From NCBI GenBank assembly GCA_025360005.1, contig JANYDA010000029.1, positions 1 to 64,000 on the forward strand: a stretch of DNA of 64,000 nt. The letters run 5' to 3'. The notes below the pieces were generated by a model. It ran no database searches and was not told the DNA's origin. It worked only from the letters and a program-made list of their open reading frames with translations. Shown in pieces: positions 792-25,903 of the stretch (within the stretch, counting starts at the first letter, position 1; each line of letters starts with the position of its first letter). Position numbers and translations under genes: made by a program. The DNA comes from Fibrobacteria bacterium (GTDB lineage: Bacteria; Fibrobacterota; Fibrobacteria; UBA11236).

Positions 792-819
792 TTATCGGCA
801 TACTTCAGAGGTTACTTTA
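792..819 (-). promoter_or_regulatory. Sigma-28 (FliA-type) promoter of the first flagellin
   Basis: On the minus strand the sequence reads TAAA (819-816), 16 nt, then GCCGATAA (799-792). The -10 is an exact match to the FliA consensus, and the -35 core TAAA is one nt further away than the classical 15 nt spacing. It lies 80 nt upstream of the flagellin ATG at 712, as expected for a late flagellar gene. Confidence 0.8.
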
Positions 820-7536: not shown

Positions 7537-9075
<1,539 letters not shown>

Positions 9076-9083
<8 letters not shown>

Positions 9084-9940: not shown

Positions 9941-10752
9941 GCTACGGGCTTCATGTAGATTGAGGGTCGGATGCACTTGAACTCCTTGACCAATCCGGTT
10001 AGGCTTTCCGCGTGGCCTACCAACAGGTAGCCCCCCGGCTTGAGCAGACGGTAGCAATCGCCGATCAGCTTCCTGCGTACGTCGTTGTCGAAATAGATCA
10101 TCACGTTGCGGACCAGGATGATATCCAGCGGCCCCTTCATGGGGAAGGGCGGAAACGCCAGGTTCATGCGCTGGAAGACGATCATATCCCTGAGGGAGCG
10201 TTTCACCTCGCTGGCGGCCGGCGAGGAGCCGCGCAAGGGGGAGAAATACTTCGCAGCGTAACCCGCCGGCAGCCCCGCCAGTTTGGATTGGGCGTAGACG
10301 CCCTCGCGGGCGGATGCCAGGATGCGCGTGGATAGATCGGTCGCGAGTATGCGCGTATCCGTTTCCGAGTTGAGCCCGCATTCGGAGAGGGTCATGGCCA
10401 GGGTATAAGGCTCCTCACCGCTGGATGAGGCCGCCGACCAGAACCGGAAGCGCTTCTGGCGTTTCCGCGTCCAGTCCATCACGGTCTCCCTGACAAAATC
10501 GAAATGCTCCGGTTCCCGGAAGAAGCTGGTCACATTGGTGGAGATGGCGTCCAGCATATGGACCATCTCGTCCCCGTTGGATCCGTCGCGGAGGCAATCC
10601 AGGTAACTGCGGAAATCGCCGACCCCCAAGGCCTGCATGCGCTTGCCGATGCGCGAGGTGACCAGGGACTCCTTGCCGTCCCCCAGGTTGATGCCGCTGG
10701 TCTGGTAAACCAAGGTGCGGAACTCTTCGAACTCTCCGGTTTTCAATTGCAT
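9937..10752 (-). CDS. cheR: Chemotaxis protein methyltransferase CheR
   Basis: S-adenosylmethionine-dependent methyltransferase acting on MCP glutamates. It has the CheR N-terminal helical domain (GEFEEFRTLVYQTSGINLGD), the central motif STNVTSFFREPEHF, the SAM-binding motif FWSAASSSGEEPYTLAM, and the C-terminal catalytic part (NVMIYFDNDVRRKLIG). I chose the ATG at 10752 (271 aa) because a sigma-54 promoter at 10781-10766 predicts transcription from about 10755, downstream of the other in-frame starts (ATG 10761, TTG 10770). None has a good RBS, so translation may be nearly leaderless. First gene of the minus-strand chemotaxis operon. Confidence 0.94.
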   Translation of the reverse strand: MQLKTGEFEEFRTLVYQTSGINLGDGKESLVTSRIGKRMQALGVGDFRSYLDCLRDGSNGDEMVHMLDAISTNVTSFFREPEHFDFVRETVMDWTRKRQKRFRFWSAASSSGEEPYTLAMTLSECGLNSETDTRILATDLSTRILASAREGVYAQSKLAGLPAGYAAKYFSPLRGSSPAASEVKRSLRDMIVFQRMNLAFPPFPMKGPLDIILVRNVMIYFDNDVRRKLIGDCYRLLKPGGYLLVGHAESLTGLVKEFKCIRPSIYMKPVA

Positions 10753-10765
10753 GGCAGCCATAGAA

Positions 10766-10781
10766 GGCAAGGTCCATGCCA
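10766..10781 (-). promoter_or_regulatory. Sigma-54 promoter of cheR operon
   Basis: The minus strand reads TGGCATGGACCTTGCC, with GG and GC elements at the correct -24/-12 spacing. It differs by only one base from the promoter of the cheA operon at 20616. Predicted +1 is about 10755. Confidence 0.75.
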
Positions 10782-10846
10782 GCCGGCCCGGAGCGGGCGC
10801 AGGGCCGCGCCAACGCGTTTCCGCTAAGGTTGCTTGGGAAGTGAAC

Positions 10847-10861
10847 GGGGAAAAGGGGTGG
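10847..10861 (-). promoter_or_regulatory. Shared box upstream of cheR sigma-54 promoter (candidate enhancer)
   Basis: The minus strand reads CCACCCCTTTTCCCC, 66 bp upstream of the -24 element. The same box occurs upstream of the two other sigma-54 promoters in the window (20525-20538 and 25776-25789). Confidence 0.45.
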
Positions 10862-10951
10862 CCAGAATCGGATGCTCCGGCGCCGTAGGCGGCGCAAGGC
10901 GATATGTTTCAGGCGGTTATCGGAAGGCCCGAAATTAGCCGGGGCCGGAAA

Positions 10952-11761
10952 TTAGGCGCGCATCTTATCGTTGGGATCCCGGGGAGCGCGTCCGTCCGCG
11001 CCGTCTCTGGCTGCGCTGGCCGCCCCAGCGGCCCCGTCGGGAGCGCCGGTACCATTCCCCTTTCCCATGATGCGATCGTCCTGAGGCAAAGTGGCGGCTT
11101 CGATTTGCTGGACCACGTAGGAGGAAAAGATGGAGAGGAGGAAGAAAAGGAAAAGCCCCAAAGCGATTTGTCCGTAGGTGCGGCTGGCTACGGCTACCGC
11201 GGCTCGGGACTCGTCTTCCAGGTTGCGCTTTTTGGCCAGTTCTACCACGGCATCGATGGCTTCCCGATGTTCCTGGTAGGCCGGTTGGATTTCGGTTTTG
11301 AGGATGACTTCCGCTTTCGCCTTATCGCCAGCCTGCATGGCAGGAATGAACTCCCGATCGATGGACTTCAGCATACGGCGCGCGGGTCCGTAAGAGGTCC
11401 GCACCAACCCTTGCTTCAGGGGTCCTTCCGGCAAGGCGCTTTCCCAGTACACGTGGCGGGCCAGGTATTCCCCCTGGAGCTTGGCGGCCTTGGCGGACAA
11501 CGACGCCAACTCCGCCTGGCTCTGGGAATGCAGCATCTGGAAGGAGGTTAGATAGGCTTCCACCAGGTATTCCGGGGGAGGCAGGATATCCGCTATTACG
11601 TCCTTACTTTGCGCGATGCGCTGGTAATAGGGCCCGTTGATTTTGACTTCCGTCACGGTATTGATGCAATAGAGCCCGTACAGGCAGAAGGAAAGCAGGA
11701 AAACCAGCGCCAGGGAGCCGAATTTCACGGCTGTCCGGGAGTTACGGAAGTAGGGGGACAT
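10952..11761 (-). CDS. Stand-alone MCP-type sensor protein without signalling domain
   Basis: Predicted membrane protein of 269 aa: TM1 near the N-terminus (VKFGSLALVFLLSFCLYGLY), a periplasmic helical sensor of about 150 residues, then TM2 (GQIALGLFLFFLLSIFSSYV) and a short charged tail. The sensor contains ADILPPPEYLVEAYL, a motif I recall from the ligand-binding region of many methyl-accepting proteins and kinases. There is no HAMP, methylation helix or signalling tip, so it cannot contact CheA/CheW in the usual way. I chose the ATG at 11761 (GAGG 8 nt upstream) over 11791. It lies between cheR and the histidine kinase gene and may sense for one of them (inference). Confidence 0.8.
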   Translation of the reverse strand: MSPYFRNSRTAVKFGSLALVFLLSFCLYGLYCINTVTEVKINGPYYQRIAQSKDVIADILPPPEYLVEAYLTSFQMLHSQSQAELASLSAKAAKLQGEYLARHVYWESALPEGPLKQGLVRTSYGPARRMLKSIDREFIPAMQAGDKAKAEVILKTEIQPAYQEHREAIDAVVELAKKRNLEDESRAAVAVASRTYGQIALGLFLFFLLSIFSSYVVQQIEAATLPQDDRIMGKGNGTGAPDGAAGAASAARDGADGRAPRDPNDKMRA

Positions 11762-11934
11762 CGGAAACCTCGATTCCTGACTTGCTGCCATAATGGTAAC
11801 ATAGGTTTTCCCGTGCGGGGAGGGCTATGGCATCGGAAAAACCCTATGTTTGCCGCGATTGTCGTTGCACCCGGCGGGACCGGTATACTACCATCCCCGG
11901 GTAACGCATCCGATAGGACGGATCGAAGGGACAT

Positions 11935-14880
11935 ATGGCCAACAAGCCCGCATTGCCTTGGTGGACCTGGGCGCTGCCGTTCCTGATCTTTCATTTCGGC
12001 ACCGGCCTTTCCCTGGGGTTCCGGATTTCCCCGGGCATGTCCCTGTGGTACCTTCCCGTCCCCTTGGGGATGATCCTCATTCATTGGTGGGGACCGAGGG
12101 TGTTGTTGGGCCTTTACCTCAACGCCATGCTATGCGCGGGCTATTGGGGCCTGTTCCGCTGGTGGCTATGGCCCTTGTACGCGGTGCCGGAGACCCTCAA
12201 GGTGGCCCTTTCCTGGTGGCTCTTCAACAAGCTTATCAAAGGCAGCCCCTGGCTGCCCAATCTCTCCAACACCTGGAAATTCCTGCTCTTGGGGTTGATC
12301 ATCCCCTGCGGGATCGCCACTTTTTATGGTCAAATGCAGATGTGGCTGCTGGGTGACATCGGCCGCGAGCACCTATTCCGCAATACCTACGTGGAATTCG
12401 TGCTGGACATCCTGAGCCCGTTCGCATTGACCGTTCCGGTGCTGGTTTTCGGCACCGCCTGGATGGAAAGGATGGGCCTTTCCAGGACCCGCGGATCCTA
12501 TCCCATGCGGGCCATGTTCCTGACGCAGCGATTCAAGCGCTCCATCATCTACGAATCGCTGGCCGTTTTCGCCGCCTTGCTGGTGTTGAGCCTGTACGTT
12601 CCCCTGGAGGAATTCTGGTTCATCTATGGCATTTTGCTGATCGGGTCCGCCCTCCGCTTCGGCTTCGCCATGGCCATCTTGGCTTCGGTGTGGACCATTT
12701 TCATCACCCTGCCCCTCCCCGCCATCCTCTCCAGCCGGTTCGCCGCCTCCATGATGAACCAGGCCGATCTCCTCAAGATCAATCTCGATCTGGCGACGCT
12801 CTGCTTCGCGGCGCTGGTGGTGGGACGCGCCTTGAGCGACATGTTCCAGGAAATCCAGGGCCGCGGCAGGGTAGAGGAGGAATTGCGCAAGAGCATTTCC
12901 GAATGGGAGTCCATGCAGAAAACCGTGCGGGAAGGCGAGGAAAAATACCGCACCCTGTTCGAATCGGCCAATGATCCGATTGTGGTGGGAGACAACGGGA
13001 TCTTGATCGAAGGCAACGACAAGGCGCTGGAGGTTTTCGGCTGCACGCGGGAGGAGTTCCTGGGCTCCCCTGCTTCGCGTTTTTTCCCGCCCGTCCTGGC
13101 GGACGGATCGGACGCATCCGAAGCGCTCGCCAAGCTGCACGGGGCGGCCATGGAGGGCAAGCCGCAGTTCTTCGAATGGAAGATGAACCGCCGGGACGGA
13201 AGCCTGTTCGATACGGAAACAACCTTCGTGGGCGTGACGCTGGAGGGCAAGCGCGTGGTCATGGCGGTGATCCGCGACATCACCACGCGCAAGGCGATGG
13301 AAAAGGCCATCCTGGAGAACGAAACCCGCTATCGCACCCTCTTCGAGTCCGCCAACGACGCCATCATCCTTTCGGCGGACGGGATCATCCTCGATTGCAA
13401 CCAACGCACGGCGGATATCTTCAGGTTTTCGCGCGATGAATTGATCGGTTCGCCGGTCACCCGCGGGTTCCCGGAATTCCAGCCCGACGGGATCCGGTCC
13501 ACGGAACGCATCCAGGAGATACGCGCCAGGGCCCTGGCGGGGACGCCGCAGAGCTTCGAATGGAACCAGATGCGATCGGACAATACCACCTTCGAATCGG
13601 AGACCACCTTGACGTTGGTCACCATCGGCGGCAGTCGCATGCTGCAAGTGGTGATCCGCGATGTCTCCGAGCGCAAGCGCATCGAACGCGCCCTCATCGA
13701 AAGCGAAGAACGCTTCCGGCAGATGGCCGAGAACATCCAGGAGGTTTTCTTCCTGCTGGACAAGCGCACGGAAAGGATGCTGTACCTGAGCCCCTTGGCC
13801 AAGACCATCTTGGGGATACCGGTCTCCAACGTCGCCAACCGCCCTTTCATGTTCGTCGACAGGGTCCATCCCGATGACCGCGATCGCATCGGCTTCCTCA
13901 CGGAAGGCGCCTGGCATCGGCAATCCTTCAACGAGGATTTCCGCTTCCAGCGCCCGGACGGGGAGATGCGCTGGCTGCGCATGCGTTCCTTCCTGATCCA
14001 CGACGACAAAGGCGATGTCTTCCGGGTGGCCGGCGTCATCGCCGACATCACCGAATACAAGATGGCGCAGGAAGAGGCGCGCGAACACCAACAGCGGCTG
14101 ATCCAGGCGGACAAGATGAACAGCCTGGGGCTGATGGTCTCCGGCGTGGCGCACGAGATCAACAACCCCAACAATCTCATCATGCTGAACAGCGACGTGA
14201 TGGAGACCTTTTGGAGGCATATGCGGCCGGTGATGCGCGATCATGCCTCGCAGAATCCCGACTGGAAACTGGCCGGCATCCCTTACGGCAACGCGGAAGG
14301 CAAATTCGAGACCCTGCTGGGCGGCGTTTCCGGGGGCGCCAAGCGCATCAAGCGCATCGTGGACAACCTCAAGGATTTCGCGCGCATGGACGGCGGGGAT
14401 CTGTCCGAATCCGTCTCTTTGGAAAAGGTGGTGGAGGCCTCGGTGGGCATCGTGGAGAACCTGATCAAGAAATCCACCGACCGCTTCAGCATCGCCCATG
14501 GCGATAACATTCCCCGCATCCGCGGCAATTTCCAGAAGCTGGAGCAGGTGCTCATCAACCTCATCACCAACGCCTGCCAATCGCTGGAGTCGCGCGACAA
14601 GTCGGTGCGTGTAGTGACCTGGCATGAGAAGGATTCCGGCCAGGTGGGCATCCTCGTGGAGGACGAGGGCAAGGGCATCCCATCCGGGCTGCTTAACAAG
14701 ATCGCCGATCCCTTCTTTACCACCAAGCGCGACAACGGCGGCACCGGCTTGGGACTCTCGGTCACCTACGGGATCATCCGCGAGCACCGCGGCGTCATTG
14801 AAATCAAATCCGAAGAGAACCTGGGGACCACGGTGGAAATCCGCATCCCCGCCCTCAAGGAAATGCGGCAAACCGCTTAA
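11935..14880 (+). CDS. MASE1-PAS-PAS-PAS sensor histidine kinase
   Basis: Membrane histidine kinase of 981 aa. Residues 1-290 form a MASE1-like multi-helix sensor (WTWALPFLIFHFGTGLSLGF and following segments). Three PAS domains follow: two sibling copies starting KYRTLFESANDPI and RYRTLFESANDAI, then ERFRQMAENIQEVFF with its PAC motif. The HisKA H-box is MVSGVAHEINNPNN. The ATPase domain has an N-box (LINLITNACQSLE) and G-boxes (VEDEGKGIP, GGTGLGLSV). AAGGG precedes the ATG at 11935. The gap to the NtrC-type regulator downstream is 11 bp, so they form a two-component pair resembling FlrB/FlrC or NtrB/NtrC arrangements. The near-identical PAS1/PAS2 suggest internal duplication. Confidence 0.93.
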   Translation: MANKPALPWWTWALPFLIFHFGTGLSLGFRISPGMSLWYLPVPLGMILIHWWGPRVLLGLYLNAMLCAGYWGLFRWWLWPLYAVPETLKVALSWWLFNKLIKGSPWLPNLSNTWKFLLLGLIIPCGIATFYGQMQMWLLGDIGREHLFRNTYVEFVLDILSPFALTVPVLVFGTAWMERMGLSRTRGSYPMRAMFLTQRFKRSIIYESLAVFAALLVLSLYVPLEEFWFIYGILLIGSALRFGFAMAILASVWTIFITLPLPAILSSRFAASMMNQADLLKINLDLATLCFAALVVGRALSDMFQEIQGRGRVEEELRKSISEWESMQKTVREGEEKYRTLFESANDPIVVGDNGILIEGNDKALEVFGCTREEFLGSPASRFFPPVLADGSDASEALAKLHGAAMEGKPQFFEWKMNRRDGSLFDTETTFVGVTLEGKRVVMAVIRDITTRKAMEKAILENETRYRTLFESANDAIILSADGIILDCNQRTADIFRFSRDELIGSPVTRGFPEFQPDGIRSTERIQEIRARALAGTPQSFEWNQMRSDNTTFESETTLTLVTIGGSRMLQVVIRDVSERKRIERALIESEERFRQMAENIQEVFFLLDKRTERMLYLSPLAKTILGIPVSNVANRPFMFVDRVHPDDRDRIGFLTEGAWHRQSFNEDFRFQRPDGEMRWLRMRSFLIHDDKGDVFRVAGVIADITEYKMAQEEAREHQQRLIQADKMNSLGLMVSGVAHEINNPNNLIMLNSDVMETFWRHMRPVMRDHASQNPDWKLAGIPYGNAEGKFETLLGGVSGGAKRIKRIVDNLKDFARMDGGDLSESVSLEKVVEASVGIVENLIKKSTDRFSIAHGDNIPRIRGNFQKLEQVLINLITNACQSLESRDKSVRVVTWHEKDSGQVGILVEDEGKGIPSGLLNKIADPFFTTKRDNGGTGLGLSVTYGIIREHRGVIEIKSEENLGTTVEIRIPALKEMRQTA

Positions 14881-14891
14881 GGAAGGCAGCC

Positions 14892-16352
14892 ATGCGAAAC
14901 GATATCCCCGTGCTGATCGTCGACGACGAAGAGGAAATCCTGGAATCGGAAGCGCTGGCGCTCCAGATTCACGGGCATGGAAACGTGATCACCTGTTCGG
15001 ATTCGCGCCGGGCGCTGGAAATCCTCAAGGAGAATCCCGTTTGCGTGGCGGTGCTGGACATCACCATGCCGCACGTGGACGGAATGGAGTTGTTGGCCTG
15101 CATCACCGAAAACCATCCCGACGTCACCGCCATTATGATGACCGGACTCAACGATGTGGACACGGCTGTGCGCTGCCTCCAGAACGGAGCCTTCGACTAC
15201 ATGCTCAAGCCGGTGGACCAGAACCGCTTCGTCACCAGCATCGGCCGGGCCCTGGATCACAAGACCGCCTACGCGGAAACCATGCGGCTGGCGCGCAGCG
15301 TACTGGACGACACCCTCTCTCGGCCGGAATGCTTCCGCGCCATCGCAACGCGGGAACGCCGGCTCCTGAACATCTTCAAGTACATCGAAGCCGTGGCCCC
15401 TACCGGCCTGCCCGTGCTCCTGACCGGCGAGACCGGAGTGGGCAAGGAACTGTTCGCCAATTCTGTGCACCTGGCCAGCGGCCGGAGCGGCGAGTTCGTC
15501 TGCGTCAACAGCGCCGGCATCGACGACGCCATGTTCAGCGATTCCCTTTTCGGCCACGCCTCGGGCGCCTATACGGGCGCCCAGAAGGACCGCAAGGGCC
15601 TCATCGACAGGGCCCGCAACGGCACCCTGTTCCTGGACGAAATAGGCGACATGAAACCTGAGTCCCAGGTGAAGCTGCTGCGGCTGCTGCAGGAAGGCAC
15701 TTACTACCGCCTGGGTCAGGAAACGGAAGAACGCACCAACGCGCGCATCGTGGCCGCCACCAACCGCTCCCTGGACGAGTTGCAAGCCGATCCGCGCTTC
15801 CGCAAGGATCTGTTCTACAGGTTGAAGGCCCATCACGTGCATATCCCTCCCCTGCGCGAACGCATGGAGGACGTGCCGCTGCTGACGGACCGATTCCTGG
15901 CCCAATGCGCGCAGGAACAAAACAAGGCCAAGCCCACGGCCCCGCCGGAACTGGAGATCCTCCTTTCCAATTACCCGTTCCCGGGTAATGTGCGGGAATT
16001 GCGCGGCATGGTCTACGACGCGGTGAGCCGGCACCAGGGCGGAGTGCTTTCCTGCGCTTCCTTCAAGACCGCCATCGGGGGGAAACACGTAAGTAACGTC
16101 TCCGCGCCCAAGCCCCACGCCAAGGAAACCGGCCTGACCTTCCCCTTCCCCCTGCCTACCATCCGCGACGCCGAATACGCCCTAATCCGGGAGGCATTGA
16201 AACGCACGGGCGGGAACAAGACCCTGGCCGCGGAGATGATCGGCATGGCCCGGCAAACCTTCCGGACCAAGGTGAAGGAAATGGATCCGCCCCGGGCCGG
16301 GAGTAACATCCAGGCTACCTCGGACGCGGCGGAGGCGGAAGCGGCCGCTTGA
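14892..16352 (+). CDS. Sigma-54-dependent response regulator (NtrC family)
   Basis: Transcriptional activator of 486 aa. The receiver domain has Asp11-Asp12 and phospho-acceptor Asp56 (VLDITMP). The AAA+ sigma-54 interaction domain has Walker A GETGVGKE, the sigma-54 contact loop GAYTGA (the usual GAFTGA with Tyr for Phe), Walker B GTLFLDEIG and the sensor motif NYPFPGNVREL. The Fis-type C-terminal HTH (GGNKTLAAEMIGMARQTF) follows. Partner of the kinase just upstream. Three sigma-54 promoters of chemotaxis operons lie in this window on either side of it, so it is the best local candidate for their activator. That link is inference from position and promoter type. Confidence 0.94.
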   Translation: MRNDIPVLIVDDEEEILESEALALQIHGHGNVITCSDSRRALEILKENPVCVAVLDITMPHVDGMELLACITENHPDVTAIMMTGLNDVDTAVRCLQNGAFDYMLKPVDQNRFVTSIGRALDHKTAYAETMRLARSVLDDTLSRPECFRAIATRERRLLNIFKYIEAVAPTGLPVLLTGETGVGKELFANSVHLASGRSGEFVCVNSAGIDDAMFSDSLFGHASGAYTGAQKDRKGLIDRARNGTLFLDEIGDMKPESQVKLLRLLQEGTYYRLGQETEERTNARIVAATNRSLDELQADPRFRKDLFYRLKAHHVHIPPLRERMEDVPLLTDRFLAQCAQEQNKAKPTAPPELEILLSNYPFPGNVRELRGMVYDAVSRHQGGVLSCASFKTAIGGKHVSNVSAPKPHAKETGLTFPFPLPTIRDAEYALIREALKRTGGNKTLAAEMIGMARQTFRTKVKEMDPPRAGSNIQATSDAAEAEAAA

Positions 16353-16368
16353 GAAAGCGGCGGCCGAT

Positions 16369-18201
16369 CTATTCCGGGACGGAAACCTTCACCAGCGGGC
16401 GGGATATACCCGCGGCATCGGTGACCCTGACAAAATACACTCCGGGGTGAAAGTTGCTTTTGCCGGCCAGGCTTAAGGGTTCCGGGCTGTCGCTTTGCAA
16501 GGATCCCGCCGCCTTTCCCTGTAGCGAGTAGAAGGCCAGGCGATAGGGCCCGGAGACGCCTGCGACGGGGCCCTGGGCCGTCCCGCCGCGGATACCCGGA
16601 TTCACATGGGTGGAGGAGCCATCGTCGATCCAAAGCAGGGAAGGGGCATTGCTCCACGGAGCCGTCAGGTTCGCCGAACCGGAAGGGAACGGACCGGCGG
16701 CTTGCTCGGCGCCCGTGTAAGCGTTCATCCAGGTACCCTTCAAAGTCCCCTTCGCCCCGGCGATGTTCAAAGTGGTGGAGCCGCCGTTGCTGAGGTACAC
16801 CAGGTATTCCGAACCCGCTTTGGCCAGGCAATGGTTCCCGCCCTTGGTTCCCAACAGGGTTTCGTCGGGAGCCAGATCATACCATCTGGTCTTGTTGAAG
16901 AAGCCGGACAGGAAGCCGTAGAACTTCAGCCCATTGGGCACCTCCGTGGTCTTCACCACGTCCCAGGCATGATAGGTGTAATAGTAAGCGGGATACGCGC
17001 CAGCCATCAGGACCTCATAAACGGTTTTCAGCACCTCCTCTTTGCTTTGCACCGACGAATAGGTTTTCCCGCCGTCGTTGCCGATCTCATAAGCAAGTTC
17101 GGCATTGTAGATGGGCCAGTTCTTCTGATTGCGCTGCCCGATGGCGGTGGCGTAAACGTTGGCTTGTTGTTGATCCGTGCGGAAATCCAGGTTGGTGTTC
17201 ATGGCGGGATCCGCCGCATAATCGGCCCCTCTTCCCAGATCATCATGCGTGGTGCGCAGCCTTTTATAGGCGTCCTTGGCGGTGATCAAATCCATCATCT
17301 TGTGGATATAGGCGTGATCGGGTTCGTTATAGGATTCCTTGGAAAAACTCCAGACGATGTTCGGGTAAGCCTGATACCGGGCGGCGAGGTTGGAAAAATA
17401 CAACTCGTCGTCCTTGGAACCTTTGGCCGGCCAATTCACGGACTTGTTGTAGACCTTGCAGAAGATGTAAGCCACCATGCCTTTTTGGAACATATAGTCG
17501 ATGACCTTATCGTAATGGTCCCAGTATGCCGCGTTCAGTTTGGAATGATCCGGGGTGCCGTTGCTTCCCGCCCAGGCGAACATATCGGGCGGGCCGTAGT
17601 CATCGGGACCGCTCTTGCCGGGCTTCCAAGCGGTATCCCAAGCATAGCCGTTCATCAGGATCTGGGTGAACCCGGCGGCGGCATACATATCGATGATCCG
17701 CTTGGCTTTCACCAGGGTGGCATCGCTGATGTCGATCAGAGCCAACCAGTCTATTTCGCCGCCCAGCAGGAAATAGGGCGTCCCATCCTCATACCGGAAG
17801 TGATGGGGATTGGCCGCATCCACGGAAATCCGTCCGTGCACGTTCGCCTGGGTATTCGCGATGCAGGTGACGCTGCCGGAAACATTGCCCAATTTTGCAT
17901 CCGGGGACGAGGTCACATAGGTCCAATTACCGACCTTGGTAGGGGCGAAGCGGACCTTCCATGTATTGCCGCCGTCGTAGAATCCGGGAACCTTCAGGAC
18001 GGTATTTCCCGGGCCGGTGAAAGTGGCATCCAGGGAAACGTCCTGAAAGGGGTTGGCGAAAGTGGCGGTGGTGGTAAAGGAAATATCGATGGGATGCCAC
18101 AACTCCACATCCGCCGCCAAGGGGGCGCATACCAAAGCCGCGAAAACCCGGATTGCATTTATGAAATGGATGTCGCCGCGTTCCCAAAATACGATTTTCA
18201 T
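16369..18201 (-). CDS. Secreted DUF5060/apiosidase-like glycoside hydrolase with sorting tail
   Basis: Secreted protein of 610 aa. After an unusual N-terminus (MKIVFWERGDIHFINAIRV, cleavage probably near CAPLAA) comes a DUF5060 beta-sandwich (ELWHPIDISFTTTATFANPF ... KVGNWTYVT). A TIM-barrel like those of DUF4038/apiosidase-type hydrolases follows, with carboxylate-bearing motifs (FLLGGEIDWLAL, NIVWSFSKESYNEPDH, PIYNAELAYE). A putative collagen-binding C-terminal domain and a tail resembling a type IX sorting domain (GVYFVRVTDAAGISRPLVKV) end the protein. Likely acts on plant or exopolysaccharide glycans; substrate unknown. GAGGG lies 8 nt before the ATG at 18201; the longer frame to 18342 has no supporting start. 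Confidence 0.85.
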   Translation of the reverse strand: MKIVFWERGDIHFINAIRVFAALVCAPLAADVELWHPIDISFTTTATFANPFQDVSLDATFTGPGNTVLKVPGFYDGGNTWKVRFAPTKVGNWTYVTSSPDAKLGNVSGSVTCIANTQANVHGRISVDAANPHHFRYEDGTPYFLLGGEIDWLALIDISDATLVKAKRIIDMYAAAGFTQILMNGYAWDTAWKPGKSGPDDYGPPDMFAWAGSNGTPDHSKLNAAYWDHYDKVIDYMFQKGMVAYIFCKVYNKSVNWPAKGSKDDELYFSNLAARYQAYPNIVWSFSKESYNEPDHAYIHKMMDLITAKDAYKRLRTTHDDLGRGADYAADPAMNTNLDFRTDQQQANVYATAIGQRNQKNWPIYNAELAYEIGNDGGKTYSSVQSKEEVLKTVYEVLMAGAYPAYYYTYHAWDVVKTTEVPNGLKFYGFLSGFFNKTRWYDLAPDETLLGTKGGNHCLAKAGSEYLVYLSNGGSTTLNIAGAKGTLKGTWMNAYTGAEQAAGPFPSGSANLTAPWSNAPSLLWIDDGSSTHVNPGIRGGTAQGPVAGVSGPYRLAFYSLQGKAAGSLQSDSPEPLSLAGKSNFHPGVYFVRVTDAAGISRPLVKVSVPE

Positions 18202-18519
18202 GAATAGCCCTCGGTTTCTAGTATAGTCCAGTCCCAACCTAAGCGCTGTATCCTTAATTAATCCCTGTAAGGCCCCAAAGGGAAAAGTTCCCGTACTCGC
18301 CTGAGTACGTGGAAATGACGCCTGAACCGGTATTAAATCCAACTTTCCCTAATTCCATTGAGGTCTAAAAAAGGCACTGTCTTCTTGAGAGTACAGATAA
18401 TCCGCACCTCCCCCGGGAAGGGGTTGCCTGCTCTCTCCCCGGCCTAAATTCCTTGTTGGACTGCACCCTTCCAATTTCTTTTCAATGCAGCATGCATTCA
18501 CATTCATAAAGGATCTTCG
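18202..18519. other. Divergent promoter interval (318 bp)
   Basis: Non-coding region between the hydrolase (minus) and the beta-propeller gene (plus), so it must hold both promoters. The one clear feature is a perfect 7-bp inverted repeat CGTACTC-GCCT-GAGTACG at 18292-18309, whose arms can be extended with one bulge (TTCC...GGAA). No ORF is credible. Confidence 0.55.
18292..18309. repeat. Inverted repeat, possible operator
   Basis: CGTACTC (18292-18298) and GAGTACG (18303-18309) around GCCT, lying 90 nt upstream of the hydrolase ATG and 210 nt upstream of the propeller gene. Either an operator for a dimeric regulator or a leader hairpin. Confidence 0.4.
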
Positions 18520-20346
18520 ATGCGATTTCCAGGCCGACATCCTATCCCTGCCGGAACCGGGCTGGCTTGGGGTTTATTGTTTTTCTTGGGTTTGGCTCCG
18601 GTTGCGCGGGCGCAACCCTTACCGAAGGTCCATCCCGGCTATGATCTGGTAGACCTCCGTCCCACCGACTTTCAACCCCAGGTGACAGGGATGCAATTCC
18701 TGCCTGACGGCCGACTCCTGGTCTTGACCCATGAGCCGGTTTTCAATAAACCGGTGATACCGGGAAACCTGTATGTGGTAAGCGGGGTAGGCGGGAACAG
18801 CTCTGCCGGCGTTACGGTAAAGAGGTTGGCGAGCAATATCTTTTGCGCCACCGGCCTGTTGGTGCACGACGGACGCATCTTCATGACCGAGAAAACCCGC
18901 TTGGTCGAGATCCTGGGCCTGGACAAGGGCGAGTTCGCCATGGATCCGGCCAAGGACTCGCTGGCCGGCAAATACCGCACGATATACACCTATGGATGGA
19001 GCAACAACTTCCACGAATTCGCCTTCGGGCCCTTGTACCGCAAGGAGGCGGATGGCAAAGGGTATTTTTACGTAGCCCTTTCCACCGCTTGGGATGCCAC
19101 CAAGAGCAGCGATGATCAAAACCTGGCGAACAAAAACAAGAACCGCGCCTCCCTGATCAAGATCTCCGAAGAGACCGGGACCGCGGAGGTGGTGCTCAGC
19201 GGCATCCGCACTCCCAACGGCCTGAACTTCGGTCCGGGCGGGGAAATTTTCCAGACGGACAATCAAGGGAATTGGGTACCGGCCGGCAAGTTGAATCACC
19301 TCCAGGCGGGCCGCTTCTACGGCTTTAAGAATACGGTAGGAGGGGCTTTCGACGATAAACCCGCTTCGCCTCCCGCCATCTGGATGCCGCATGGGGATAT
19401 CTCCGCTTCACCCACGGATCCCACCCTGCTCACCCAGGGAACGTACGCGGGACAACTCCTGATCGGGGACGTTCGCTTCGGCGGATTGCAAAGGTGTTTC
19501 CTGGAAAGGATCAATGGGGAATACCAGGGCGCGGTGTTCAAATTCTCGGGCGGATTCCAAACCGCGTTCAACCATATCGAGATCGGTCCGGACGGGGCCA
19601 TTTACCTGGGAGGGATAGGCGCCCAGAATGCCTCCTTCTGGACCTGGACGGGCGCGAACGGGCCGATGTACTGGGCCCTGAACAAGCTGAAGCCCAACAA
19701 TAACCCGGTCTTCGATTTCCTGGCCGTCCGATCGCTGGGGCCGGACAAGGTGGAACTGCAATTCACCGAGCCCGTGGACGCTTCGGCCGCCAACCCCGCC
19801 AATTACGATATCCGCACCTGGACTTATACGCCCACCTCAGTCTATAACAATCTGCCGCAGGGAACCCAGACCCGCGCCATTACCTCGGCGGCCCTCACGC
19901 CCTCGGGGGATAGGGTGGTCCTGGGCGTCAGCGGCCTCAAGGCGGGAGGCGTCGGATACGTGATGGACGTCAAGATCAAATCCATCGCTTCCAAGTCCGG
20001 ACGGCCGCTCTGGACCAATGAGGCCTGGTATACCTTGAACCAGTTCGGCCCGGGTGAGTCGTCGTCGGGCATAGACCGCTTGGAGAAGGGGAAGAATGCG
20101 GCTCCCCGCTCCGATCCTTTCCGGGTATTGGGGTGGGATGCCGGTGGACTCAGGTTCCAGACAGGCTCAAACGGCGATTGGAAGGCATCCTTAAAGGATG
20201 GTTTTGGAAGGACGTTGCGGGAATTCCAAGGCAAGGGAAACGACAGTCGTTTGGATCTGCCTCAGGCCGCCTTTCCCGCGGGAATTTATTGGCTTGTGCT
20301 GGCGAATGCCGCCGGGACTTATCCCCATAAGCTTTTGCGATACTGA
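18520..20346 (+). CDS. Secreted beta-propeller protein with sorting tail
   Basis: Secreted 608-aa protein with a signal peptide ending RAQ (LFFLGLAPVARAQ). The body is a beta-propeller of the glucose/sorbosone dehydrogenase-like or membrane-bound dehydrogenase type (GMQFLPDGRLLVLTHEP, CATGLLVHDGRIFMTEKTRL, TPNGLNFGPGGEIFQTDNQG, HIEIGPDGAIYLGGIG). A beta-sandwich with the motif VELQFTEPVDASAANPANYD (Ig-like/CHU-type) follows, and a tail resembling a type IX sorting domain ends it (GIYWLVLANAAGTYPHKLLRY, shown here in part). No cytochrome CxxCH is present. AAGGA precedes the ATG. Divergent from the glycoside hydrolase, possibly co-regulated with it. Catalytic activity is not established. Confidence 0.82.
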   Translation: MRFPGRHPIPAGTGLAWGLLFFLGLAPVARAQPLPKVHPGYDLVDLRPTDFQPQVTGMQFLPDGRLLVLTHEPVFNKPVIPGNLYVVSGVGGNSSAGVTVKRLASNIFCATGLLVHDGRIFMTEKTRLVEILGLDKGEFAMDPAKDSLAGKYRTIYTYGWSNNFHEFAFGPLYRKEADGKGYFYVALSTAWDATKSSDDQNLANKNKNRASLIKISEETGTAEVVLSGIRTPNGLNFGPGGEIFQTDNQGNWVPAGKLNHLQAGRFYGFKNTVGGAFDDKPASPPAIWMPHGDISASPTDPTLLTQGTYAGQLLIGDVRFGGLQRCFLERINGEYQGAVFKFSGGFQTAFNHIEIGPDGAIYLGGIGAQNASFWTWTGANGPMYWALNKLKPNNNPVFDFLAVRSLGPDKVELQFTEPVDASAANPANYDIRTWTYTPTSVYNNLPQGTQTRAITSAALTPSGDRVVLGVSGLKAGGVGYVMDVKIKSIASKSGRPLWTNEAWYTLNQFGPGESSSGIDRLEKGKNAAPRSDPFRVLGWDAGGLRFQTGSNGDWKASLKDGFGRTLREFQGKGNDSRLDLPQAAFPAGIYWLVLANAAGTYPHKLLRY

Positions 20347-20615
20347 AAAGCGGGCCTGAGGGCCTTTATGCCCGGAGCGTATGGCCTGGGCGTTTTAGGG
20401 GTCGGGGAAATCAACGGCCTTCACCTCCGCCCAAATTCGGATCCCGGCCAAATTCAGTACCCTGCCTAAGCCCAACTCCGGACCGGATTTGCGGGAATGC
20501 CCCGCCGCCCCGCTCCGAATTTGTCCACCCCTTTACTCTCCGGTAAACTCTCGGGCAAACCGCCGGATAAGGCTTTCCCCTCTTCCCATCGGGAATTCCG
20601 AACTCTCGTGACGAA
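20347..20615. other. Gene-free region upstream of the cheA operon
   Basis: No coding signal is seen. It holds the CCACCCCTTT box at 20525-20538 and, at its right end, leads into the sigma-54 promoter at 20616. The run CCCAAATTCGGATCC near 20431 is similar to CCAAATTCGGTTCC near 25699, upstream of the other plus-strand sigma-54 promoter, which may be a further shared element. Confidence 0.5.
20525..20538 (+). promoter_or_regulatory. Shared box upstream of cheA-operon sigma-54 promoter (candidate enhancer)
   Basis: CCACCCCTTTACTC, 77 bp upstream of the -24 element. It matches 12 of 14 positions with the box at 25776-25789 and with the minus-strand box at 10861-10848. Confidence 0.4.
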
Positions 20616-20631
20616 TGGCACGGACCTTGCC
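20616..20631 (+). promoter_or_regulatory. Sigma-54 promoter of the cheA-cheW-mcp operon
   Basis: TGGCACGGACCTTGCC is an almost perfect -24/-12 promoter (consensus TGGCACR-N4-TTGCW; only the last base differs). Predicted +1 is about 20642, giving a 45-nt leader with AGGAGG before the ATG at 20687. Confidence 0.88.
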
Positions 20632-20686
20632 ATATCCCCTTGCGCGGACCCGACGGCAACATCGCCGCGGCGACAGGAGGGCTAAC

Positions 20687-21019
20687 ATGGAAACTGCCGA
20701 ACTCATGCGGGGATTCAGGACGCCGGCGGAAGCGGATCTCTCGGAAAGGGCGCGCAGCCTGATGGCGCTCGCCACCTTGGCCATCGATTGCCCCAACATC
20801 GTCGAACAGGTTTCCAAAGGTTTTCTGGAATTGGCCGGCTTGGCACGGAGCTGCGGCAAGGCCCGCATCTGCATGGCCTCGCGCGCGCTGGCCACGGTCT
20901 TAACCCGGCTGGACAAGGCGCCGGAAGACGATGCTCCCCTTATCCTGGATACGGTGGTGAACTTCCTGGAAACCATCCATGCTGCGCATGATCTGCCTAT
21001 GCCCGTAGGCGCCGCATGA
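20687..21019 (+). CDS. Small conserved-looking chemotaxis operon protein of unknown function
   Basis: First gene of the sigma-54-driven chemotaxis operon, 110 aa, predicted all-helical and cytoplasmic (ERARSLMALATLAIDCPNIV ... LILDTVVNFLETIHAAHD). AGGAGG is correctly placed before the ATG at 20687. Its TGA overlaps the cheA ATG (ATGA), so translation is coupled to CheA. It has no receiver, HPt or CheW signature that I recognise. Length and helix content would fit a CheA- or receptor-binding adaptor or a CheZ-like factor, but no motif supports either. No function is assigned. Confidence 0.8.
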   Translation: METAELMRGFRTPAEADLSERARSLMALATLAIDCPNIVEQVSKGFLELAGLARSCGKARICMASRALATVLTRLDKAPEDDAPLILDTVVNFLETIHAAHDLPMPVGAA

Positions 21020-22857
21020 GCGCCGAAATGGCCGTGACCGGGCAGGCCGAAATGCAGACGGACGGCGAGTCGTTCCTGCTTCCCCCCGATGCGGATACCT
21101 CCATCCTGGGGGACTTTATCGTGGAGGCATGCGAGCATCTGGAAGCCTCCGACCTCAACCTTCTCAGTCTGGAAACGGATCCCGGCAACCGGGATCTGCT
21201 GGACGCGGTGTTCCGCGCCTTCCATAGCATCAAGGGCGTGGCCGGATTCCTGGGGCTGGATGGGATCAAGATCCTTTCCCATGAAGCCGAGAACATGCTG
21301 GATCAAATCCGCAATGGGCACTTAGCGTTGCAGGGCCAGGTGATGGATTGCGTATTCGACGCGGTGGCGTTCCTGAAACGGGCCATCGCCGATCTTAAGA
21401 AAGGCGTGAACGGAGAGGACGACCAGGCGGCCCGCGGGCAATCCGCCGCGCTGCGCGCCCGCATCCGCCAACTGCTGACGGGCAAGGCCCCGGAGCCCAA
21501 GCTGGGGGACATCCTGGTGGCCTCCGGCGCCATCGCCCCGGAGGCCCTGGAAGCGGCGCTGATCAAGCAGGCCGATCCGGCCAACACCCTTAAGCTGGGG
21601 GAGATGCTGGTGGAGTCCGGCCAGGCCGGGGCCAAGCAGGTAGCCCAGGCGTTACGTACCCAGAAAAGCGTCTCGTCCGCGCCGGTGGCCAACCTGAAGG
21701 AAACCGTCAAGGTGGACGCGGAACGCTTGGATCGGCTTTTGGATACCATAGGGGAATTGGTGATCGCCGAATCCATGATCCAGGGATCGCCCGAATTGAA
21801 GGGCCGCGTCTCGCCCAAGCTGGTGCAACAGATGGGGCAGCTCGACAAGATCACCCGCGAACTCCAGGAAATGGGCACCTCCCTGCGCATGGTGCCGGTG
21901 CGGCCCACCTTCCAGAAGATGGCGCGCCTGGTGCGCGACCTATCCAAGAACAGCGGCAAGGGCGTGAATTTCGTGACGGTAGGCGAAGAGACCGAATTGG
22001 ACAAAACCGTGGTGGAGAAAATAGGGGATCCCCTGGTGCATATGCTGCGCAACTCGCTCGACCACGGCATCGAGTCCGACCCGGAAGAACGCCTGCGCGC
22101 CGGCAAGCCCGCCGTAGCGACCGTGAAATTGAGCGCCTTCCAGAAGGGCGGCAACGTCTGCATCGAGATCTCCGACGACGGCAAAGGTCTAAACCGCGAA
22201 GCCATCCTGGCCAAAGCGCGCGACCGCGGGCTTTTGAAGGATGACCCGAATCCCCCGGACAAGGAAGTCTGGGGATTCATCTTCGAGGCAGGCTTCTCCA
22301 CCGCCAAGCAGGTGACGGAACTGTCCGGCCGGGGAGTGGGCATGGACGTGGTCAAGCGCAATATCGAAATCCTGCGCGGCCGCATCGACATCCACTCGGT
22401 ACCCGGGCAGGGCACCACCTTCAGCATCTGGCTGCCGCTGACGCTGGCCATCATCGACGGCATGGTGGTCCGCATCGGCGAGGAACGCTACGTCTTCCCC
22501 ACCCTCTCAATCGTGCGCATCGTGCCGTTCGACGAGAAGGATCGGCTTACCGTCAAGAGCAAGGGCGAAATGCTTTCCGTGCAAGGCGAGCTGGTCCCCT
22601 TTTTCCCCCTTAAGGATTATTTCCACGCTACCGGAATCCCGGGCGGCCAGATCTCCCGCCTCATCGTCATCGCCGAAAGCGAAGGCCGCAAGGCCGCCTT
22701 TCCGGTGGACGAATTGCTGGGGCAGCAGCAGATCGTGATCAAAAAACTGGAGACGGAATTCCAAAACATCCCCGGCCTCTCCGGTGGCGCCATCCTTTCG
22801 GACGGCTGCGTCGGCCTGATCCTGGATTTGGACGGTCTCATGAAACTCGGGTTCTAG
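21016..22857 (+). CDS. cheA: Chemotaxis histidine kinase CheA
   Basis: Cytoplasmic kinase of 613 aa that phosphorylates CheY and CheB in response to MCPs. The P1 HPt domain carries phospho-acceptor His70 (FHSIKGVAGFLG). Instead of a recognisable P2 domain there is a segment at about 155-220 with two similar units (PKLGDILVASGAIAPEALEA and LKLGEMLVESGQAGAKQVAQ), reminiscent of the N-terminal domain of GspE/MshE-type ATPases. P3 dimerisation (about 231-300), the ATPase domain (N-box HMLRNSLDHGIE, G-boxes SDDGKGL and GRGVGMDVV) and the CheW-like P5 domain follow. Coupled to the preceding small gene by ATGA. Confidence 0.97.
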   Translation: MSAEMAVTGQAEMQTDGESFLLPPDADTSILGDFIVEACEHLEASDLNLLSLETDPGNRDLLDAVFRAFHSIKGVAGFLGLDGIKILSHEAENMLDQIRNGHLALQGQVMDCVFDAVAFLKRAIADLKKGVNGEDDQAARGQSAALRARIRQLLTGKAPEPKLGDILVASGAIAPEALEAALIKQADPANTLKLGEMLVESGQAGAKQVAQALRTQKSVSSAPVANLKETVKVDAERLDRLLDTIGELVIAESMIQGSPELKGRVSPKLVQQMGQLDKITRELQEMGTSLRMVPVRPTFQKMARLVRDLSKNSGKGVNFVTVGEETELDKTVVEKIGDPLVHMLRNSLDHGIESDPEERLRAGKPAVATVKLSAFQKGGNVCIEISDDGKGLNREAILAKARDRGLLKDDPNPPDKEVWGFIFEAGFSTAKQVTELSGRGVGMDVVKRNIEILRGRIDIHSVPGQGTTFSIWLPLTLAIIDGMVVRIGEERYVFPTLSIVRIVPFDEKDRLTVKSKGEMLSVQGELVPFFPLKDYFHATGIPGGQISRLIVIAESEGRKAAFPVDELLGQQQIVIKKLETEFQNIPGLSGGAILSDGCVGLILDLDGLMKLGF

Positions 22858-22901
22858 CTTCTGAAGCCCGTTAAGACAAGGCAATGGAAAGGACAACCAA
22901 T

Positions 22902-23399
22902 ATGTCGGCAGGAAAATACCTCACGTTCAAACTGGGCCCCGAGGCCTACGGGATAGGGATCCTGAAGGTCCAGGAGATAATCGGAATGCTCGCCGTGACC
23001 CGCATGCCGCGCACGCCCGCCTATGTGCGCGGTGTGGTCAACCTCCGCGGCAAGGTTATCCCCGTTCTGGATCTCCGCCTCAAGTTCGGGATGGAAGGGC
23101 GCCAGGACACCGATCGCACCTGCATCATCGTAGTGCAACTGCAGTCCGCCGGTTCCATCGTCACCATGGGGATCATCGTCGATGAGGTTTCCGAAGTGTT
23201 GGACGTGACGGCGGAGCAAATCGAACCGCCTCCCAGCTTCGGCATGGCCGTGGACGTTTCCTTCATCTCCGGAATGGGCAAGGTGGGCCAGAAGGTGGTG
23301 CTGCTGCTGGACGCGGATCGCATCCTGATGAGGCAAGAGCTCGAGGCCATCGGTTCCGGCGAGAACGCCGGCGCCGAATCCGCGGTTTCCCGTCTCTGA
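22902..23399 (+). CDS. cheW: Chemotaxis coupling protein CheW
   Basis: Adaptor of 165 aa linking MCP tips to CheA. It has the CheW beta-barrel motifs YLTFKLGPEAYGIGILKVQE, MPRTPAYVRGVVNLRGKVIP and SFISGMGKVGQKVVLLLDAD. I chose the ATG at 22902 because AAGGA lies 8 nt upstream; an earlier ATG at 22884 has no RBS. It is 44 bp after cheA and 47 bp before the mcp gene, in one operon. Confidence 0.96.
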   Translation: MSAGKYLTFKLGPEAYGIGILKVQEIIGMLAVTRMPRTPAYVRGVVNLRGKVIPVLDLRLKFGMEGRQDTDRTCIIVVQLQSAGSIVTMGIIVDEVSEVLDVTAEQIEPPPSFGMAVDVSFISGMGKVGQKVVLLLDADRILMRQELEAIGSGENAGAESAVSRL

Positions 23400-23446
23400 A
23401 TCATGGCGTCCGGCCTCGGTAAACCGGCATTGGAAAAGGGATGGCA

Positions 23447-25156
23447 ATGAACTTCAAGAACTACAGCATCAAGTCGAAACTCCTGCTGGGATTTTCCGCG
23501 CTCGCCGCCATGATCGGATTCATGGGCGCGCGCGGCATCCTGGCGGCAAAATCCCTGAACGGACAGATCAGGAAAATCGGCGCAGTGGATTTCGTGCATG
23601 CGCAGAAGGTCCAGCAAATCAAGGAAATCGAAAACAACTGGCAGCGCGCGGTGGTGGAGCACATCCTCTTCGTCCTGCCGGATCAGATGTCCGATCAGGC
23701 CAGGAAAATGAAGATCCGCGGGGATTCCCTGGTGCTGGTGCTGGACGCCCTCAAGGACGATTTGGAAGAGGACGAATCCGCCCAACTCCTGGGCGACAAC
23801 CGGGATCTCTGGCTTTCCCTGCAAAAGGAAAAAGACGCGTCCGTCTACCTTTCCGAGAACGGCAAGAAGACCCAGGCCCGCGACTATTGGATCGAAAAGG
23901 GACGCCCCCTGGTCAAGAAGTTCGACGCCAACATCACGCAGATCAAAGCCCGGCAGCAAGCCCAGGTGGACGCCTCCCTGGCCCATGCCCAGGCCACCTA
24001 TGCCGCCATCCGCAACCTGCTCTCCGCGCTTGCGGTCGCGGCGGCCCTGGGCGGACTGTTGATGGGATTTTTCCTGGCCGGTTCCATCGGCAAAGGCCTT
24101 ACCCGCGTGATCGATTCCCTGACGGCGGGCAGCGAGCAGATCTCCTCCGCCTCCGGCCAGGTGAGCCAATCGAGCCAGCAATTGGCCGAAGGCGCCAGCG
24201 AGCAGGCCTCTTCTTTGCAGGAGACATCCGCCTCCCTGGAAAGGCTGGCCGCCATGACCAAGCAGAACAGCGACAACGCGCGCCAGGCCGACAAAATGGC
24301 GGGTGAGGCGCGGGGCGAAGCCGAGGGCAGCCGCACCGCCATGGATCGCATGGGCCGAGCCATCGGCAAGATAAAGGAGTCGGCGGATCAGACCGCCCGC
24401 ATCATCAAGACCATCGACGAGATAGCCTTCCAGACCAATCTGCTGGCCCTGAACGCGGCCGTAGAAGCGGCCCGCGCGGGCGATGCCGGCAAAGGCTTCG
24501 CGGTGGTGGCCGAGGAGGTGCGCAACCTGGCCCGCCGCAGCGCGGAAGCCGCCAAGTCCACGGCTTCCCTCATCGAAGACTCCCAACGCAATGCGGTGCA
24601 GGGTGTATCCGTCTCCAATGAAGTCGGCGATATCCTATCCCGCATCGTTGCCAAGGTGCAGAAGCTGGCGCAACTGATCGCGGACGTTTCCGCGGCCAGC
24701 GACGAGCAAGCGCGCGGCATCGATCAAATCGGCTCCGCCATGGGGCAGATGGACCAGGTGACGCAATCCAACGCGGCCAGCGCGGAAGAATCCGCATCTG
24801 CCAGCGAAGAGATGTTCGCGCAGTCCAAGGAATTGGCGGACATGGTCCGCGTCCTGGTGGGCATCGTGCGGGGCCGCGGAGAGGAGGGTTTCCAAACCTC
24901 CCCGCAAGAGGATTCCGGGTCCCGCGTCGCGATCGCAGGCGCGGCCCGCGGCCGGCACAAGCAGGGCGCCGCCGTAGCCGCTTCCCCCACCCGTATTCTG
25001 CGGCCGGCCGATGCCGGGAAAAAGGCCGCGCAAGCTATTCCGACCGGCGATTGGACACCGCAACCCACGCCCAAAGCAAAACGCAATGGGCATGGCCCAG
25101 TCGCCGGCTCGGAAACAATCCTGCCTTTGAGCGAGGAAGATCTCAAGGATTTTTAA
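23447..25156 (+). CDS. Methyl-accepting chemotaxis protein
   Basis: Membrane chemoreceptor of 569 aa. TM1 is near residues 10-30 ([16 protein letters not shown]), a periplasmic four-helix-bundle sensor covers about 30-185, and TM2 follows ([20 protein letters not shown]). The usual HAMP is short or absent: the coiled signalling helices start right after TM2. The highly conserved hairpin tip is [20 protein letters not shown] ... [17 protein letters not shown] low-complexity linker leads to the C-terminal tail [12 protein letters not shown], which resembles a CheR/CheB tether and recurs in the second MCP. AAGGG lies 6 nt before the chosen ATG at 23447. Last gene of the cheA operon. Confidence 0.95.
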
Positions 25157-25175
25157 AGAGGATATCCCATCCGCG

Positions 25176-25197
25176 GGGCAGCGGATCCCCGCTGCCC
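25176..25197. terminator. Strong hairpin between convergent genes
   Basis: GGGCAGCGG (25176-25184) pairs perfectly with CCGCTGCCC (25189-25197) around ATCC. It lies 20 bp after the MCP stop and 13 bp from the stop of the convergent STAS-like gene. There is no T-tract, so it would be a weak or rho-assisted terminator for both. Confidence 0.5.
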
Positions 25198-25209
25198 GTA
25201 TTCACGGTG

Positions 25210-25581
25210 TCAACAACACTCCAGGATCGCCTCTTCTTCCGCGTGCACCAGGACCTGCGCATAGCGGTTCACAGCCGTGTTTTCAAACAGCTTATTGATC
25301 CGATCCCGCGGGGAAAGGATGCCGGCCTTCAACCTGCCGCCCCATGTTTCGGCGAACAATACGCCCAGGTTGTAGCGCTCAAGGCCGGGAATATCCCCGG
25401 CTACCGAACGGATGTCCAACAAGGCCCTGGTCATGCCCGCCTTGACGCATTCATCGCGGCACCCTAGCACAAGCACTCTGAAATCCTCGAAATCATAGGC
25501 GCCGGTTATCAGGAAATGCAGGTAGCCGGGAGCGCGGGTCAAGGTGACCTGGATCAAGCGGGTGTTCAATTGCAAGTGCAT
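25210..25581 (-). CDS. STAS/SEC14-like domain protein
   Basis: Cytoplasmic protein of 123 aa resembling small stand-alone proteins annotated as STAS/SEC14-like (LITGAYDFEDFRVLVLGC, then ALLDIRSVAGDIPGLERYNLG, then NKLFENTAVNRYAQVLVHAE). That family has no established reaction; it is thought to adopt an alpha/beta STAS-type fold used for binding. It sits alone on the minus strand between the two mcp transcription units. With a receiver/phosphatase-like protein encoded nearby (27692-28813), a partner-switching role is conceivable but not shown. The RBS before the ATG at 25581 is weak. Confidence 0.7.
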   Translation of the reverse strand: MHLQLNTRLIQVTLTRAPGYLHFLITGAYDFEDFRVLVLGCRDECVKAGMTRALLDIRSVAGDIPGLERYNLGVLFAETWGGRLKAGILSPRDRINKLFENTAVNRYAQVLVHAEEEAILECC

Positions 25582-25887
25582 GGGAGCTTACCTATGGAAC
25601 CTAAATATAAACCCCGTCTCCGCATTTCTTGTAAAGCCCGTCACGGAAAAGCCTTAATCGCGGCGGGCCCGCATAGGCGACCAAAATCCAGCCCCGACCA
25701 AATTCGGTTCCGACGTTAAACCCAGATCTTACAGCGGGTTAGGGAATCGTCAACCGTAGCGGGCACCAGAATAAGCCACCCCTTTTCCCGCGCCCCTTCC
25801 GGTCCGCGACCGCCAGGGACGTTAGGGAATCCCCGATAGGCGCGCGCAACCGGAAGTTTTTTCCCGAACCCGCGTCCTTCAGCGCGC
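25582..25887. other. Gene-free regulatory region upstream of the second mcp
   Basis: No coding signal. It holds a direct repeat GTTAGGGAATC at 25738-25748 and 25821-25831 (83 bp apart), and the CCACCCCTTTTCCC box at 25776-25789 lying between the two copies. The sigma-54 promoter at 25888 follows. This arrangement fits an enhancer region for a bacterial enhancer-binding protein. Confidence 0.55.
25776..25789 (+). promoter_or_regulatory. Shared box upstream of second mcp sigma-54 promoter (candidate enhancer)
   Basis: CCACCCCTTTTCCC, 98 bp upstream of the -24 element. Identical over 14 nt to the minus-strand box upstream of cheR (10861-10848). Confidence 0.45.
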
Positions 25888-25903
25888 TGGCATGGGAGTT
25901 GCC
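25888..25903 (+). promoter_or_regulatory. Sigma-54 promoter of the second mcp operon
   Basis: TGGCATGGGAGTTGCC, with GG and GC elements correctly spaced and close in sequence to the two other chemotaxis promoters. Predicted +1 about 25914, leaving a 52-nt leader before the ATG at 25966. Confidence 0.82.

Follow-up and report, generated by a model that had tools for sequence, protein, structure and literature searches.

A putative chemotaxis regulon with sigma-54 promoters and helically phased upstream elements around a kinase/NtrC-type pair in Fibrobacteria

Three chemotaxis transcription units in the window (the whole stretch of 64,000 nucleotides that was analysed) carry -24/-12 promoters of the sigma-54 type, and a shared sequence element lies upstream of each, at distances that keep it close to one face of the DNA helix. 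The genes for a membrane/PAS sensor kinase and an NtrC-type activator lie among these units. We consider it probable that this dedicated pair acts through RpoN and phased enhancers to switch on the che regulon. The promoters, the elements with their phasing and conservation, the co-occurrence of elements and regulator, and the presence of RpoN can all be read from the DNA itself.

Results

Three exact sigma-54 promoters precede the chemotaxis units

The sequence-only reading had located TGGCAYGG-N3-TTGCC ahead of three chemotaxis units, and all three sites are confirmed as exact (Table 1); they precede cheR-D-Y-X-B, orf110-cheA-cheW-mcp and mcp-RR/SpoIIE-HK, respectively. These are the only exact matches in the window, compared with a mean of 0.00 in 100 dinucleotide shuffles, and the whole 4.98 Mb genome contains four, that is, one outside the window. 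Each site presents GG at -24 and GC at -12 with the fixed spacing of a sigma-54 promoter, and RpoN (PF04552) is encoded in all six genomes of the genus that were examined, the window genome included. The fourth genomic copy (C44:25005) lies upstream of an HxlR-like regulator gene, named by eye, where scoring with the element matrix described below matched no che-type upstream element. The exact motif (TGGCACGGGGGTTGCC) precedes an HxlR-like gene in two genomes (L042 at ~9020, which is G000:C44:25005, and L040 at ~2105). A genome-wide search for the canonical form TGGCAYG-N4-TTGC gave 10 matches, versus 6 with reversed-pattern controls; the genes that these matches precede, again assigned by eye, are the three che units, flgJ-like and flgB-like genes, an ECF-like sigma factor, an Hsp20-like gene, the HxlR-like regulator and others.

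Transcription starts predicted from the sigma-54 consensus fall at ~10755 for the cheR unit, ~20642 for the cheA unit and ~25914 for the second mcp unit. The cheR mRNA is thus predicted to be nearly leaderless, with ~3 nt between the start and the ATG at 10752 (window 10750-10781, minus). A short leader is also predicted for cheR of G004 and in G002:C121 (L037, L106), and longer ones for cheR of G002 and G003. The sigma-28 flagellin promoter that had been reported nearby is indeed present, as TAAAGT-N14-GCCGATA at 793-819 (minus) preceding a flagellin gene, and another sigma-28-type site (TAAA-N-CCGATA) occurs at 34124-34150 (plus). The flagellin genes lie ~6 kb from the che locus and flgK/flgL-like genes are found elsewhere.

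Table 1. Positions of the promoters, upstream elements and genes of the locus in the window.
Feature	Position	Strand	Basis
-24/-12 sigma-54 promoter, cheR-D-Y-X-B unit	10766..10781	-	exact motif; kept in G002, G003, G004
-24/-12 promoter, orf110-cheA-cheW-mcp unit	20616..20631	+	exact motif; kept in relatives
-24/-12 promoter, second mcp unit	25888..25903	+	exact motif; kept in relatives
Candidate upstream activating element, cheR unit	10851..10870	-	motif search; 26.0 bits; 89 bp from -24
Candidate upstream activating element, cheA unit	20516..20535	+	motif search and matrix; 100 bp from -24
Candidate upstream activating element, second mcp unit	25767..25786	+	motif search and matrix; 121 bp from -24
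cheB	7537..8631	-	Pfam CheB_methylest and Response_reg
cheX	8604..9083	-	Pfam CheX
cheY-like, single receiver	9076..9462	-	by eye from translation
cheD	9464..9940	-	Pfam CheD (on longer ORF); translation
cheR	9937..10752	-	Pfam CheR and CheR_N
orf279, membrane protein resembling MCP sensor part, without signalling domain	10952..11791	-	53% identity to N-terminal part of a G003 MCP
Sensor kinase: membrane part (weak MASE1), PAS domains, ATPase domain	11935..14880	+	family scans; conserved in G002-G004
NtrC-type activator: receiver, AAA+, HTH_8	14892..16352	+	family scan
orf110, small uncharacterised protein before cheA	20687..21019	+	conserved in G002-G004
cheA with MshEN-like stretch (residues 162-216)	21016..22857	+	family scan
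cheW	22884..23399	+	family scan
mcp, four-helix-bundle receptor	23441..25156	+	family scan
Second mcp	25966..27675	+	family scan
Receiver-SpoIIE phosphatase protein	27692..28813	+	family scan
Second histidine kinase, start codon uncertain	28822..29649	+	family scan

Organisation of the locus and its kinase/regulator pair

The locus encodes CheA, CheW, MCP, CheR and CheB, recognised by family scan, and a CheY recognised by eye. The layout first proposed holds in that the kinase/NtrC pair lies between the two chemotaxis blocks, the cheR promoter is where it had been sited and the regulator comes before the cheA block, but it had overlooked orf110 in front of cheA, the membrane-protein gene orf279 that separates the cheR promoter from the kinase, and two unrelated genes (16369-20346) ahead of the cheA block. 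One of these last two genes is apiosidase-like (DUF5060) and the other has a product of 608 aa; both follow the regulator and precede the cheA promoter, and no counterpart was found between regulator and cheA in G002, G003 or G004. The Pfam scan returned no match for orf110 or orf279. The latter is kept in four genomes; a similar gene occurs at G002:C121, and the sensor part of an MCP at G003:C36 resembles it too. It is possible that orf279 is a ligand-binding partner of the kinase. An inverted repeat, AACATAGGTTTTC / AAAACCCTATGTT, at 11791-11935 between orf279 and the kinase gene is partly recognisable in G002 and is a possible operator. Intergenic pieces such as CCAAATTCGG are common to 20420-20500, 25690-25715 and 10900-10960, and also to L034 and L038; they are perhaps a dispersed repeat. 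The MshEN-like c-di-GMP motif of CheA scores 38.7 bits against a cut-off of 38 (42.7 in G002), and in G003, two paralogues and G094 the match is below the cut-off or absent. MshEN-CheA fusions have been described before (PMC5013675).

The kinase and regulator genes are 11 nt apart and divergent from orf279. The description of the sensor as a MASE1/PAS kinase stands for its PAS domains, whereas the MASE1 match, at 20.2 bits, is below the Pfam cut-off of 29.8. The regulator has the receiver, AAA+ and Fis-type HTH domains of an NtrC-type enhancer-binding protein, and the GAFTGA loop that contacts sigma-54 is present as a GAYTGA variant in all four genomes that carry it. The best NCBIfam models for the two proteins are AtoS and AtoC, with scores far under the curated cut-offs (205.5 versus 646 and 338.9 versus 714). 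For the regulator, NtrC is the other close curated model, and the protein scores too low to be assigned to either the AtoC or the NtrC equivalog.

The promoters are conserved in the genus wherever the locus is complete

The locus is complete in four of the six genus genomes (G000, which is the window genome, G002, G003 and G004), and exactly these four have an orthologue of the regulator at E<=1e-120; none was found at this threshold in G001 or G005. A -24/-12 promoter precedes every one of their units (12/12, three in each of four genomes, which share ancestry and are hence not independent). The exact pattern first described is found in 10 of the 12, with a one-base difference in G004 mcp2 and G003 RR; the third promoter of G003 directly precedes RR-SpoIIE. 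The scan of relatives suggested by the sequence-only reading thus found the motif upstream of che genes in all four locus-bearing genomes, and the opposite outcome, loss of the motif with retention of the genes, was not encountered in relatives with the locus. This conservation supports the sigma-54 reading.

A shared upstream element is helically phased with the promoters

A Gibbs search recovered one shared element, CGRWTTNNKCCACCCCTTT, upstream of 12 promoters; it is present at each of the window promoters and had been missed at first. Leave-one-out scores of the 12 matrix sites range from 17.3 to 29.8 bits, where the best match in random 250-nt stretches reaches 15.2 bits at the 99.9th percentile. 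The element exceeds 15 bits in 10 of the 12 locus units and in front of two unlinked genes, and is weak at G003 cheR (13.4 bits) and G003 RR (8.8 bits, though at the modal distance of 89). A composite search for element plus promoter in the six genus genomes, with gap ranges set after the promoters had been viewed, gave 11 matches (three each in G000, G002 and G004, two in G003, none in G001 or G005) and one with a reversed-pattern control. Nine of the 11 lie in the locus, and the other two precede the orf279-like gene of G002:C121 and the MCP with the orf279-type sensor in G003:C36. All 11 stand before che/mcp or receptor-like genes, and only in genomes that own the NtrC-type gene. The bare motif KCCACCCCTTT was also tried and set aside: with 9 matches in the genome versus 17 for the reversed control, so short a sequence is by itself not enriched. 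Three of these nine matches are the che elements; the other six are without a canonical downstream -24/-12 and mostly intragenic by eye.

Counted in the 20-base register, the distances from element to -24 at 12 strong sites are 89 (six sites), 100 (three sites), 121, 132 and 134 bp, and between orthologous promoters the distance shifts by 11, 32 or 43 bp, which are near-whole helical turns. At a period of 10.5 bp the resultant length for the 12 strong sites is 0.90. This test, likewise set up after the promoters had been viewed, returns p = 5e-6 if the 12 sites are counted as independent and p = 0.008 if only the six distinct distances enter; because the sites share ancestry, the fairest figure is p ~1.5e-4, obtained when each orthologous promoter contributes every distinct distance once. 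Such phasing fits an activator that is required to face the polymerase.

The association recurs in another family of the phylum

The regulator has matches in 23 genomes, and wide contexts were viewed for 11 non-genus loci in nine genomes. Chemotaxis genes are close to the match in G094 (C128), G080 and G096 (C159); in the remaining non-genus contexts no che/mcp was matched within the stretch, save for lone receiver or kinase matches. In G094, which belongs to another family of the phylum and has 40% GC, the kinase and a regulator of 62% identity adjoin RR-HK-mcp-mcp and a che cluster (L098, L140). An element of 29.4 bits is found there at 115 bases beyond the regulator gene; it is followed, at a distance of 91 bp, by TGGCACGACCTTTGA, with an imperfect -12 (TTGA instead of TTGC), and both precede RR-HK-mcp-mcp. 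Apart from this place, which the scanned loci cover twice, nothing reached 21 bits in the 1.84 Mb of non-genus loci. That scan included the matches from a search of genome contigs, which were only remote NtrC relatives (<=51%). In G080 no strong element was found, the best scoring 13.3 bits, and the -24/-12 is weak.

Paralogous che clusters have a different promoter type

A second cluster of the cheA-W-mcp-R-D-Y-X-B type is found in G001, G002, G003 and G004, with cheA 58-61% identical (the gene list for G001 ends where the stretch ends). In all four of these clusters TTGAC-N17/18-TANNNT lies 482-490 bases upstream of the cheA match, and a search at one mismatch found no -24/-12 before cheA. 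The same sigma-70-type expression, chosen after the promoters had been viewed, matched none of the 11 sigma-54 units tested. G000 has no close cheA paralogue, its second match (C57) being 39% identical.

Discussion

We propose a model in which the membrane/PAS kinase senses a signal and phosphorylates the NtrC-type regulator, which would then bind the upstream elements 89-134 bp from the promoters on one helix face; CCACCCCTTT is the sequence expected to be protected. The bound regulator would loop to the RpoN-polymerase at TGGCAYGG-N3-TTGCC, and its AAA+ domain would open the three promoters together. Three groups of genes would then be expressed: cheR, D, Y, X and B for adaptation, cheA, W and mcp for the core array, and another receptor gene together with those for RR-SpoIIE and a kinase. 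Phosphorylation, binding, activation and the signal, as well as the start sites given above, are what we infer from the genes and sites. The assignment to the adjacent regulator, which had been proposed from position, gains support from the phased element, from co-occurrence (four genomes with both, two with neither) and from the copy in G094.

It is unlikely that the sigma-54 promoters answer instead to a flagellar enhancer-binding protein or some other activator, the kinase/NtrC pair standing there by chance with another target. The genome has 17 strong and 6 weak Sigma54_activat matches; there are further flagellar sigma-54 promoters (flgJ-like and flgB-like, by eye), the genome's own flgJ promoter scores 15.9 bits for the che element, and the known Rhodobacter case runs on the flagellar sigma-54 system. 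Against this, the composite elements track the NtrC-type gene across the six genomes, a flgJ-type sigma-54 promoter also occurs in G001, which is without that gene, and the element of G094 adjoins the NtrC orthologue. The flgJ promoters of relatives (G002, G004, G001) score low for the element and have a different upstream region. Upstream of flgJ-type promoters (L243-L245, L248) in three genomes we observed a GGAAAAWTCCACC...GGCAAGTTTTTCCC-like sequence, which may be where a separate activator of flagellar genes binds. Given the score of the window genome's own flgJ promoter, the dedicated regulator may serve more than chemotaxis and may also touch late flagellar genes.

Slightly less plausible again is that the element is the site of a different protein, such as a repressor or an architectural factor, with sigma-54 activation proceeding from sites yet to be seen. 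Fis-type HTH activators usually bind dyads, and a dyad test of the element gave no convincing symmetry; it is not palindromic, and this is the main oddity of the dedicated-activator reading. The helical phasing to -24 and the co-occurrence with the NtrC-type gene nevertheless fit an activator. That the -24/-12 sites are vestigial or fortuitous and the units depend on a sigma-70 or sigma-28 promoter is very improbable: matches with up to three mismatches are common (81 versus a mean of 56) and, being near chance, uninformative, whereas the sites proper persist in every unit despite flanks that have diverged across genomes, and the coding strand around the window sites showed no sigma-70-type promoter.

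If the dedicated pair does control these units, chemotaxis capacity would be induced as a unit by its own sensor and would not come solely as a late step in assembling the flagellum, and the steering genes of these little-known bacteria would be neither always on nor merely following the flagellum genes. The paralogous clusters suggest, tentatively, that a duplicated che operon switched promoter class: one copy would have kept a sigma-70-type promoter, and the other would have been split in three and captured by a two-component system with phased enhancers, making steering inducible and separate from flagellum assembly. Of the pair, G000 retains only the copy that would be inducible, and in this genome the main chemotaxis would then depend entirely on induction. 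A genus in which one gene set exists with both sigma-70-type and sigma-54 promoters offers a natural comparison of a change in promoter class, and the element with its one-turn spacing steps provides both a search tool and a face-of-helix test for sigma-54 enhancers.

Martin reportedly placed chemotaxis genes of Rhodobacter sphaeroides under sigma-54-2 in 2006. The idea that the present locus is a distinct regulatory design survives for its dedicated pair but not for sigma-54 control of che genes as such, which has already been reported in Rhodobacter (PMC7277832), predicted in Geobacter (PMC2577667) and counted in Desulfovibrio (PMC4641369). In R. sphaeroides, sigma-54-dependent che operons have been reported and, as predicted for the genus studied here, sigma-54 transcribes chemotaxis genes while another che operon is sigma-70/28 dependent; there the arrangement belongs to the fla1 flagellar system, with FleQ/FleT and a specialised RpoN2 (PMC7277832), whereas here there is only one RpoN, the che locus itself contains a kinase/NtrC pair, and the system has an element of its own. 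Geobacter likewise has -24/-12 promoters predicted before some major che clusters, and the pertinent passages of that paper assign no activator, enhancer or multi-unit regulon (PMC2577667). Two chemotaxis operons of Desulfovibrio vulgaris are similarly listed under sigma-54; the corresponding passages name no regulator for chemotaxis and place chemotaxis-linked promoters among those without a predicted UAS (PMC4641369). The adjacent genes for a kinase and a receiver-AAA+-HTH regulator recall AtoS-AtoC and NtrB-NtrC, from which the pair differs in having che genes as its predicted targets and in its low equivalog scores. Searches of the openly licensed literature returned no account of a che regulon with an enhancer-binding protein dedicated to it, and no paper on this bacterial group. 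Relative to the literature found, the new features are the dedicated regulator, the phased element and the pairing of sigma-70 and sigma-54 paralogues.
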